Assembly (NCBI RefSeq): GCF_000331995.1
Contig: NC_020134.1
Location: 2,516,627 to 2,580,626, forward strand
Direction of reading: 5' to 3'
DNA from: Thermoclostridium stercorarium subsp. stercorarium DSM 8532
GTDB lineage: Bacteria > Bacillota > Clostridia > DSM-8532
Length of the DNA stretch: 64,000 bases
In this document: positions 34,034-36,947 of the stretch, piece after piece
How the letters are laid out: every line of letters starts with the position of its first letter
Position numbering within the stretch: position 1 is the stretch's first letter
Made by a program: the position numbers and the translations under genes
The notes under the pieces: model-generated
What the model saw: the letters and a program-made list of their open reading frames with translations, nothing else
Told to the model about the DNA's origin: nothing
Databases searched by the model: none

Positions 34034-34458
34034 TGTTAATGTCTCCTGTCCGTTGGAAGTTTCGAACCGGTAACCACAAGCATGCTGAAGGACATTTAGG
34101 CTATATATTAATATTACTATAAAACCGTAATTCTGTTGAGAGAAAAATAACCGTAACTGGCGTAAAAAACTCTTCATGGGCAGACAAGTCGGACGAAAAC
34201 GGTGATGATACAGCCTGTCGGGCTGACCCAACGCAGCAGACTTTGGAATATTGCAATAAAACTTTGGATAACTGAATAATAAGATGTTTAAACACCCGGA
34301 GAAGTCATATACGGAAATATACGCCGAAATCATGATTATGGCCATGCATATCAGAGGAAAAATTTCAAAATACCCGGAACCGAGTGCGTGATTTCGGAAA
34401 AAACAAGTCCCCTGTAACATGCCATGGCCATATTGTATTGTAAATCGGCAAGTTAAGT
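34034..34458. other. Spacer between citrate synthase and addB
   Basis: About 425 bp without a supported gene. On the minus strand a small hairpin, ACAGG-GGA-CTTGT, at 34403-34415 followed by six T residues may terminate the citrate synthase transcript. The rest shows no recognisable aptamer or promoter, although the addB start must have a signal here. A 35-codon plus-strand frame at 34285 looks like chance. Confidence 0.35.
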
Positions 34459-35856
34459 TTATAAATTGCCTGCAAGGCTGTCCATTTTGGCATTTCTCAT
34501 ACTGAGAGGCACATATTCTCTTTGAGGTGCTATGCTCTTATAAGCCGGCCTTATTATTTTGCCCTTATTCACCAATTCTTCTATTCGATGGGCGCTCCAG
34601 CCTACAATTCTTGCCACTGCAAAGAGCGGGGTGAACAGCTCTTCAGGAATGTTAAGCGCCCTGTAAACAAATCCTGAATAGAAATCCACATTGATGCTTA
34701 CGCCTTTGTAGATTTTCCTTTTTTCCGCAATAACTTCAGGCGCAATTCGTTCCACTTTTTCATAAAGTCTGAATTCTTCCTCAAAGCCCTTTTCCTTCGC
34801 AAGCTCCCTTGCATATTCTTTCAGTATCTCGGCTCTTGGATCGGATACGGAATACACCGCATGGCCCACACCATAGATCAGGCCGCTTCTGTCAAAAGCC
34901 TCGCCATTCAGTAATTTGTTGAGGTAATCTCTTATCTGGCCTTCATTGTCCCAGTCTCTGACATTTTGTTTCATATCTTCAAACATCTGAACAACCTTTA
35001 CATTCGCTCCGCCGTGCCTTGGTCCTTTCAGCGAACATATTGAAGACGCTATTGTGGAATAGGTATCGGTTCCGGTTGATGTTATTACATGGGTGGCAAA
35101 GGTGGAATTGTTTCCCCCGCCGTGTTCTGCGTGCAAAACCAGGGATAAATCCAGAATCACGGCTTCAAGATGGCTAAATTTTGAATCCGGCCGCAAAAGA
35201 TGAAGAATATTCTCGGCAGTGGAATACCTGCGTTTCGGGACGTGGATCACAAGGCTCTTTTTCTGGTGATAATGAGCCAGCACCTGATACCCGTAAACGG
35301 CCAAAAGAGGGATTTGAGCTATTAACTGCAGACACTGCCTTATAACATTGCTGATGGATATGTCATCAGCCTGATCATCATAAGTATATAACGCAAGCAC
35401 GCTTCTTGCCAGAATGTTCATAACATCCCTGCTTGGCAGCTTCATAATGGCGTCTTCCACAAAGGACGGAGGCAGCTTCCTGTATTCCGCCAACAAAGAT
35501 TTAAACTCGTTCAGTTCGTTTATCGTGGGTAGCTCTCCGAAAAGCAACAAATACGCCACTTCTTCAAAACCGAACCTGCCTTCCGACAGGAACCCGTTGA
35601 CTATGTCCTTTATGTCCATGCCTCTGTAAATTAATTTACCCGGCCCCGGAACAGTCTCGCCCTTTTCGTTGACATATGACGCCGTTACTTCACCAATTTC
35701 GGTGAGCCCTGCCAAAACGCCTTTCCCGTTTATGTCCCTCAGGCCCCTTTTCACGTCGTACTTAATATAGAGTTCGGGATCAATTCTGTTGCTTTTCTCC
35801 GCTATTGAAGCGTATTCCTCAAGCAAGGCATGTTTTCTTTTCTTAATTCCGTCCAT
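34459..35856 (-). CDS. Citrate synthase
   Basis: Citrate synthase condenses oxaloacetate and acetyl-CoA. I placed the start at 35856, behind AAGGAGG, giving 465 aa; a longer frame opening at 35940 would run into the terminator. Catalytic segments are SLVLHAEHGGGNNSTFATH, CSLKGPRHGGANVKV and the second histidine in IYGVGHAVYSVSDPRAEIL, plus SINVDFYSGFVYRALNI near the C terminus. This is the Si-type family; a methylcitrate synthase role cannot be excluded. The leader contains a c-di-AMP riboswitch and terminator, and the unit is separated from addB by 425 bp. Confidence 0.95.
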   Translation of the reverse strand: MDGIKKRKHALLEEYASIAEKSNRIDPELYIKYDVKRGLRDINGKGVLAGLTEIGEVTASYVNEKGETVPGPGKLIYRGMDIKDIVNGFLSEGRFGFEEVAYLLLFGELPTINELNEFKSLLAEYRKLPPSFVEDAIMKLPSRDVMNILARSVLALYTYDDQADDISISNVIRQCLQLIAQIPLLAVYGYQVLAHYHQKKSLVIHVPKRRYSTAENILHLLRPDSKFSHLEAVILDLSLVLHAEHGGGNNSTFATHVITSTGTDTYSTIASSICSLKGPRHGGANVKVVQMFEDMKQNVRDWDNEGQIRDYLNKLLNGEAFDRSGLIYGVGHAVYSVSDPRAEILKEYARELAKEKGFEEEFRLYEKVERIAPEVIAEKRKIYKGVSINVDFYSGFVYRALNIPEELFTPLFAVARIVGWSAHRIEELVNKGKIIRPAYKSIAPQREYVPLSMRNAKMDSLAGNL

Positions 35857-35928
35857 GTTACACCTCCTTAAACCAAAATAATAAATTACAATTTGTGTAA
35901 TAAAAGTAAGAATTTTAGCTGTTGTGTA

Positions 35929-35957
35929 TAAAAAAACCATGGAGTATATCCATGGTT
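35929..35957 (-). terminator. Riboswitch terminator upstream of citrate synthase
   Basis: AACCATGG pairs with CCATGGTT (8 bp, 7-nt loop), followed on the minus strand by TTTTTT. It sits directly after the ydaO aptamer and about 75 nt before the citrate synthase start. Confidence 0.9.
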
Positions 35958-35961
35958 ATGT

Positions 35962-36090
35962 GCTATACCCCTCTTTCAAGGCCTACGAGGTTAGCTGCCG
36001 GGCTCGGGCTGAAAGAGTTACCCTATCCTTTTAGAAAGGAATTCGCCCCAAAAAATTGGTTCCCCCGCTTCACTATATGTGAATTAAGCC
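35962..36090 (-). promoter_or_regulatory. ydaO-type (cyclic di-AMP) riboswitch
   Basis: Read on the minus strand the region has the ydaO blocks in order: CTTAATTCAC with a short hairpin, GCGGGGGAACCAAT, TTGGGGCGAATTCC, AGGATAGGGTAACTCTTTCA, GCCCGAGCCCGGCAGCTAAC, CTCGTAGGC and TTGAAAGAG. This matches the c-di-AMP aptamer of Bacillus ydaO block by block. It is followed by an intrinsic terminator, the usual off-switch layout. Confidence 0.93.
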
Positions 36091-36127
36091 TATACAATTT
36101 TAAGATAAAAACACCGATCGTATCATT

Positions 36128-36156
36128 ATTTTACTATATGCAATACTCTTTGTCAA
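36128..36156 (-). promoter_or_regulatory. Sigma-A promoter of the citrate synthase leader
   Basis: On the minus strand TTGACA, 17 bp, TAAAAT precedes the aptamer by about 35 bp. The -35 is a perfect consensus and spacing is ideal. Confidence 0.85.
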
Positions 36157-36356
36157 ACAAAAACTTGGATGTAACGGGAACTCCGAAATGAAAATTTTCC
36201 CGAATTCCTTTCATTGCAAATATTGGGTTATTAATAATTTTGTGTTCATTATTTTAATGATCAGATTGGGGAAAATTTATGGTCATCAGTTGTAATGTGG
36301 AATTTATTTATTTAAATGTAACATTTCGACACCAGTTTTGTTTTATATAATGAAAT

Positions 36357-36569: not shown

Positions 36570-36947
36570 TTGAGTTTATATCAGAATGTATTAGTGTGCG
36601 TCACCAAACAAAAAACCTGCGAAAGACTCATAAAAGCCGCATCCAAACTTAAAGCAAAAAACGGAAATCTTCGTGTCCTGCATGTTGCAAAAAATTCATG
36701 GAATATTCTTGACAACAGCCGTGAAAGCGAAGCCCTTGAATATCTTTTTAAGGTCTCGAAGGAATACAATGCAGATATGACAGTATTAAGATCGGACAAT
36801 ATATCAAAAACCATAGCAGACTTTGCAAAAAACAACGGAATAGACTTAATTGTACTCGGGCAGTCGAATAATGAACAGGAAAACAAATTCTACAAACAGC
36901 TCTGCAACCTGCTAAAGGACGAAATAAACATTGAGGTTATACCTTAG
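36570..36947 (+). CDS. Universal stress protein-like (Usp/KdpD-Usp fold) protein
   Basis: The 125-aa protein has the Rossmann-like Usp pattern: an initial strand YQNVLVCVTKQKTCERLIKAA, the strand LRVLHVAK and the late strand IDLIVLGQSNNEQENKF. The classic Usp ATP motif GxxGxxxxG-S is not complete, so nucleotide binding is uncertain; resemblance is to the Usp domain of KdpD-type sensors. It starts with TTG at 36570 after AGAGGT. A TATAAT at 36517-36522 is a likely -10 box. A strong bidirectional terminator follows, and the gene is monocistronic. Confidence 0.75.
   Translation: MSLYQNVLVCVTKQKTCERLIKAASKLKAKNGNLRVLHVAKNSWNILDNSRESEALEYLFKVSKEYNADMTVLRSDNISKTIADFAKNNGIDLIVLGQSNNEQENKFYKQLCNLLKDEINIEVIP

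Follow-up and report, generated by a model that had tools for sequence, protein, structure and literature searches.

A c-di-AMP riboswitch in front of a second citrate synthase gene in Thermoclostridium stercorarium and related Clostridia

The uptake of potassium and osmolytes is known to be under c-di-AMP control, as is pyruvate carboxylase in some Firmicutes. On the minus strand of a 64,000-nucleotide stretch of the Thermoclostridium stercorarium subsp. stercorarium DSM 8532 genome (the window, analysed here at its full length), an RNA of the c-di-AMP riboswitch class lies in front of a citrate synthase gene, and the question is why an enzyme of central carbon metabolism should stand behind such an RNA. 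The original prediction, made from the sequence, held that c-di-AMP would limit the entry of carbon into the citrate/2-oxoglutarate/glutamate branch. The locus comprises the following features.

36128..36156 (-): sigma-70-type promoter, TTGACA-N17-TAAAAT, read from the sequence
35964..36100 (-): c-di-AMP (ydaO/yuaA) riboswitch aptamer, RF00379, located by cmscan
36011..36017 (-): 5' strand of the aptamer pseudoknot, CTCTTTC, pairing with GAAAGAG at 35977-35971
35971..35977 (-): 3' strand of the aptamer pseudoknot, GAAAGAG, pairing with CTCTTTC
35964..35971 (-): antiterminator 5' strand, GGGGTATA, complementary to 35948-35941
35941..35948 (-): antiterminator 3' strand, TATACTCC, the terminator loop plus the first 3 nt of its 3' arm
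35930..35957 (-): intrinsic terminator, a 9-bp hairpin (-11.5 kcal/mol alone) running into 7 T, from sequence
34459..35856 (-): controlled gene, citrate synthase (Si type) of 465 aa, identified by NF010635 and a PDB match

The complete ydaO-type aptamer that had been predicted was confirmed by the Rfam covariance model, which cmscan matched over its full length (model positions 1-134 of 134) at 36100-35964 of the minus strand, scoring 108.5 bits where the gathering threshold is 38 (E 6.4e-25 over the 64 kb of the window). Just one further Rfam match in the window reached its gathering threshold, a TPP switch at 6834-6729 (82.2 bits, minus strand). The consensus promoter and intrinsic terminator of the original prediction were likewise found, the former with boxes TTGACA (36156-36151) and TAAAAT (36133-36128) at a spacing of 17 nt, the latter as the hairpin AACCATGGA-TATAC-TCCATGGTT followed by seven T. 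The downstream frame scored 720.8 bits against the curated model NF010635/PRK14032 (cut-off 426) and its best PDB match was a citrate synthase (E 6.8e-54), identifying it by family model as a Si-citrate synthase of predicted catalysis. The list of open reading frames opens this frame at ATG 35940, within the terminator; because the Shine-Dalgarno sequence AAGGAGGTG precedes the ATG at 35856 and the relatives place the start there as well, we take 35856 as the real start. As predicted, the interval from terminator to citrate synthase holds no gene on the same strand, and an 89-aa opposite-strand frame over the aptamer (35922-36191, plus strand) was taken as spurious.

Could the aptamer stand before this gene by chance? 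Among 61 genomes, the host included, of which 32 belong to family f1, RF00379 was found in 41 and a citrate synthase matching NF010635 in 52. Of the 32 f1 genomes, 10 proved, on comparison of coordinates by script, to carry a switch directly upstream of citrate synthase on the same strand, at 11 loci in total and with 129-424 nt between switch and protein match. The link was present in all sampled members of three genera (g1, 4/4, one genome twice; g4, 3/3; g6, 3/3) and in none of four others (g2, 0/14; g3, 0/2; g5, 0/1; g7, 0/5), and in all it was not found in 22 of the 32 f1 genomes; in G005 and G031 one switch stands so near a contig end (299 or 70 nt) that its target gene may be cut off. 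In a 42-row tree, built without some second copies and without any g5 or g7 rows, the 11 linked citrate synthases formed one clade with support 100/100 and a single gain, and none of 500 shuffles gave a value as low as one gain. Since the same arrangement recurs before 11 genes in 10 genomes, the association goes beyond chance, and chance placement was rejected. A separate scan of 80 named citrate synthase loci, which may omit records of the host genome or near ones, found the switch at two, both linked loci of f1 genomes (G002:C145 and G003:C47); four of the 80 had less than 300 nt upstream, where a switch could be missed. This limited spread, like the 22 f1 genomes in which the link was not found, weighs against the reading of the locus as a dedicated switch.

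The paired elements of RF00379, pseudoknot included, are retained in the linked aptamers. Across the 11 sequences from three genera, standard pairs fill 347 of 363 pair cells; of the 16 broken cells, all but one are confined to two pairs, and two-sided changes occur at four well-kept pairs. The helix CTCTTTC/GAAAGAG, which we take to be the pseudoknot helix of the solved ydaO RNAs, is paired in 77 of 77 cells, yet it is invariant and so gives no covariation. The RNA is an ordinary member of RF00379, and what seems new is its target. A promoter of the form TTGAC(A/G/T)-N17/18-TAAAAT or TATAAT precedes all 11 linked aptamers, and a CCATGG hairpin with a T-run follows in all 11 leaders, the run being just 4 T in G003.

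On sequence and energy grounds, the expression platform appears able to switch, with terminator and antiterminator predicted to be mutually exclusive. The segment GGGGUAUA (GGAGUAU in g4), which spans the end of the pseudoknot strand and the bases after it, is able to pair with UAUACUCC, and this alternative helix is possible in all 11 leaders; in G003 both of its strands are changed, to GAGGGUAU and AUAUCCUC. Predicted energies were -11.5 to -13.7 kcal/mol for the terminators and -5.7 to -12.0 kcal/mol for the antiterminators, the weakest being that of G002a, which carries one mismatch. Leader by leader the complementarity is modest, again weakest in G002a: equal pairing arose in 4-142 of 2000 mononucleotide shuffles and in 2-243 of 2000 dinucleotide shuffles. 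The ligand-free minimum free energy folds hold the terminator in 11 of 11 leaders, and the antiterminator would therefore have to win kinetically. In the host genome (G000) the antiterminator 5' strand overlaps the pseudoknot strand by only 1 nt, which counts against the model as far as the block of this pairing by the ligand is concerned. The ligand-free folds would also suit a constitutive terminator or a relic aptamer that came down with the locus and has ceased to switch. We regard this as improbable in view of the pair cells kept across three genera, the two-strand shift of the antiterminator in G003, the promoter kept in every leader and the presence of a switch before all 11 members of the clade.

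The locus is thus best read, with good though not full confidence, as a transcriptional OFF switch that senses c-di-AMP and acts on a second, dedicated citrate synthase. At high c-di-AMP the ligand would lock the aptamer, pseudoknot included, so that GGGGUAUA could not hold UAUACUCC, and the CCAUGG hairpin would form and stop transcription at the T-run. When c-di-AMP drops, at low potassium or high osmolarity, the antiterminator would form and citrate synthase would be transcribed. Ligand binding and direction of control we infer from the riboswitch class.

ATP was once proposed as the ydaO ligand. An ATP-sensing paper stands among the references in the portion of PMC7266159 available to us, and a ligand other than c-di-AMP, such as ATP, or control in the ON direction would offer another account of the locus, which we consider very unlikely. 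The columns that are invariant over 48 aptamers are kept, by definition, in the citrate-synthase-linked ones among them. The host encodes one diadenylate cyclase (PF02457 DAC domain, 160.4 bits) and by gene content is predicted to make c-di-AMP. As to direction, OFF logic is expected because two terminator-type c-di-AMP switches tested elsewhere are OFF: according to the accessible sections of the two reports, c-di-AMP left less than 5% read-through in vitro at a terminator-type switch before lysine 2,3-aminomutase (PMC9337991) and promoted termination before kdpFABC (PMC6488665).

In the loci examined, citrate synthase has genes of the same direction behind it, and the true target might be a gene further down the operon (transporter, addBA, patatin or alcohol dehydrogenase), with citrate synthase a bystander. 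These genes vary, however. In g1 an ANKH-family transporter-like gene or its remnant stands behind citrate synthase, followed by addB and addA where the stretch reaches (addBA judged by eye or from partial scores); in g4 it is a patatin-like gene (G006, G012), and in g6 an Fe-ADH-family gene (G008, G013 and G017, that of G013 by eye or from partial scores). The contig of G016 breaks off within citrate synthase. The transcription units inspected share no gene other than citrate synthase, and since the genes behind it differ between genera, it is the likely target; an operon partner in that role was rejected, and we give this reading hardly any weight.

The controlled gene is an extra copy. The host genome, one contig of 2.97 Mb, encodes a second citrate synthase (1246757-1248088) that is 55% identical and lacks a switch, and each of the 10 linked f1 genomes holds at least one further citrate synthase without a switch directly upstream. 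Of the two aconitase-family frames of the host, of 663 and 436 aa, the longer was taken for aconitase. The switched enzyme, acting on top of the unswitched housekeeping synthase, would raise the flux from acetyl-CoA and oxaloacetate through citrate and 2-oxoglutarate to glutamate, and to beta-glutamate, organic anions that would balance or replace potassium. Its most likely role is osmotic, as a citrate synthase dedicated to the supply of glutamate or beta-glutamate.

A survey of 293 genomes of the class, which revealed parallel cases, found RF00379 in 91, of which 16 belong to f1, two (G035 and G157) fell below the cut-off and were dropped, and 73 are others. A citrate synthase matching NF010635 occurs in 36 of these 73 genomes (49 rows), with a switch directly upstream, by script, in a single row, that of G305 in the distant family f41; in G241 the stretch upstream of citrate synthase was scanned and held no switch. 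The G305 switch (55.3 bits, E 2.7e-10; 68.8 bits with a model of our own) lies 81 nt before the ATG of one of three Si-citrate synthases. In a 46-row tree in which the G305 branch is flagged as long, two gains are needed, and 0% of 200 bootstrap trees give one. A Si-citrate synthase in G050 (C61) was not counted, as its c-di-AMP switch lies downstream of it, before an SH3-NlpC/P60 protein.

A further enzyme type came from a Re-citrate-synthase-like protein, matched in 42 of 80 genomes (43 rows); as a query it gave no match in the host genome at E 1e-30. A 23-row tree unites eight of the rows in one clade (100/100), each of them linked to a c-di-AMP switch. In G050 (f20) and G120 (f40) the gene lies directly behind the switch; in G009, G014, G018, G020 and G022 (the sister genus g7, f1) and in G043 (f13) a glutamate 2,3-aminomutase-like gene comes in between; the G020 locus is split over two contigs, and its link we infer. 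For the other 35 rows no listed switch lies within 2500 nt upstream, and scans of the stretch upstream of the Re-like gene in G106, G139, G149, G170 and G250 found none. Four of the switched proteins reached 142-159 bits with their best NCBIfam models (homocitrate/isopropylmalate synthase; cut-offs 463-517), and an unlinked relative in G056 adjoins an aconitase; Re-citrate synthase is a putative label for the switched clade. The partner gene scored 604-641 bits with TIGR04368 in 14 near-full-length rows, below the cut-off of 650. In the four proteins compared, TIGR04368 gave 614-636 bits and the lysine 2,3-aminomutase model 431-457 (cut-off 525.4), and we therefore named the family glutamate 2,3-aminomutase-like, its score lying below 650 but above that for lysine 2,3-aminomutase. 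At five loci (L205, L206, L210, L212 and L217) switch, aminomutase-like and Re-citrate-synthase-like gene stand in a row, possibly a beta-glutamate osmolyte operon.

All eight Re-linked genomes also encode a citrate synthase that is not linked, of Si type in seven of them and a further Re-like copy in G043, and an unswitched synthase thus accompanies the linked one in 19 of 19 genomes (10 f1 with the Si type, 8 with the Re type, and G305). From sequence comparison, the switches on the Re-type genes belong to other lineages: in a quick tree the aptamers of G009 and G043 fall outside the citrate-synthase-linked group (0.98 with the G032 switch, 0.76 excluding it), and G050 and G009 share, by eye, a different terminator hairpin.

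There is perhaps an even chance that Clostridia have repeatedly built an osmotic citrate synthase, as Si-type enzymes in two lineages and a Re-type enzyme in a third, each a c-di-AMP-switched extra copy beside an unswitched housekeeping synthase, with counter-ion synthesis set by RNA at the entry of the citrate branch rather than at pyruvate carboxylase. In that case c-di-AMP would, through a direct RNA link, also govern the making of the balancing anion where carbon enters its pathway, and recurrence in separate Clostridia, seemingly with two non-homologous enzyme types, would make the design general.

The switch may also be real and control citrate synthase for another purpose, namely general central-carbon or amino-acid economy (acetyl-CoA/oxaloacetate balance, nitrogen) and not osmolytes. 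Citrate synthase is a hub, c-di-AMP acts on pyruvate carboxylase as well (PMC8822347 and PMC10243994, as far as their accessible text goes), and the glutamate 2,3-aminomutase-like gene of the host (633.5 bits, cut-off 650) has no adjoining c-di-AMP switch. On the other hand, the further targets of such switches examined in these genomes include cell-wall hydrolases, cation/proton antiporter proteins and DapB-like enzymes, six of the eight switched Re-type genes sit behind a glutamate 2,3-aminomutase-like gene, and an unswitched synthase stays in each linked genome. We judge this reading unlikely, though not negligible, and keep the osmotic one. The role first proposed, that c-di-AMP limits carbon entry into the citrate/2-oxoglutarate/glutamate branch, stands as the best reading, with its direction taken from the class. 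It has gained from the recognition that the controlled gene is a second synthase and the sole common gene of the transcription units examined, and from the switches that other Clostridia have before another Si-citrate synthase and before a Re-like gene that is usually behind an aminomutase-like gene.

How does this arrangement compare with known systems? Like other members of RF00379 (kimA/ktrAB in Bacillus subtilis, kdpFABC in B. thuringiensis), it has a full-length aptamer, an intrinsic terminator and expected OFF logic; the target is here a central-carbon enzyme, there a potassium importer or cell-wall hydrolase. A close parallel, as described in the accessible part of PMC9337991, is the Na+/c-di-AMP tandem riboswitch in front of Dehalobacter sp. 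CF ablA, where a terminator switch for c-di-AMP acts on a biosynthetic gene with ties to an organic osmolyte, although enzyme and pathway differ (lysine 2,3-aminomutase). Compared with what is available of that tandem, the citrate synthase leader has one aptamer, preceded by no further Rfam match, and pairs bases at and after the pseudoknot strand with the terminator loop and right shoulder. The same partial source ties dapB, ablA and eam under Na+ switches to osmoprotectants. Available excerpts further report that c-di-AMP lowers glutamate and aspartate pools in Lactococcus (PMC8092236, PMC10243994) and restrains pyruvate carboxylase (PMC8822347), and a switched extra citrate synthase would fit this logic. 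Inhibition of pyruvate carboxylase (Listeria, Lactococcus) and its control by DarB (B. subtilis) similarly restrain carbon entry to glutamate/aspartate-type anions, but at the protein level and one step upstream, whereas citrate synthase would be controlled at the RNA level. The author of the prediction knew of no description of the pairing, and the open-access literature searched, as far as its accessible text goes, yielded no report linking a c-di-AMP switch to citrate synthase, the consulted portions of PMC4342826, PMC5670726, PMC8388888 and PMC3871023 (ydaO with citrate synthase/gltA terms) included; an earlier listing in Block 2010, Nelson 2013 or supplements is possible.

Other switches were seen on the way. 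The host genome has two, one on citrate synthase and one at a LysM cell-wall hydrolase (L002, 1501-1634, minus strand), where the model end abuts the start codon of the hydrolase. At the latter, AGGAGG lies near the aptamer 3' end just before the ATG, a placement that points to control of translation, in contrast to the terminator of the citrate synthase leader. Among the further targets examined are cell-wall hydrolases, a CPA2-type antiporter, an MnhE-type antiporter subunit, SulP proteins and DapB-like enzymes; once the loci had been correctly oriented, AsnA and a SpoVT-like protein were rejected as targets. In genus g2 a DapB-like gene stands behind the switch at L004, L005, L007, L009-L012, L016, L018, L019 and L027, TIGR00036 having been run on L004 alone. 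In G032 a switch (L079, 2027-2152, minus strand) is followed, some 220 nt on, by a Band 7/SPFH-domain gene (PF01145), and it is this aptamer that groups with the citrate-synthase-linked ones at 0.98 in the quick tree.

Two observations concern the neighbours of the switched gene. Between citrate synthase and addB, at 34340-34420 (minus strand), lies a frame similar to the N-terminal end of the ANKH-family transporter-like gene, which is intact in G001, G002b and G003 and by eye seems decayed in G000 and G002a; the listed addB start (34420) is therefore probably too far upstream in G000. On the other side, at 36570-36947 (plus strand), lies a divergent Usp-domain protein (PF00582) whose best NCBIfam match is a KdpD-like potassium sensor (E 9.4e-10); a link through this gene is conceivable. 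According to the accessible text of PMC7288161, the Usp domains of Staphylococcus aureus KdpD bind c-di-AMP. By eye, Usp-like frames are also present near the switched citrate synthase in six relatives.
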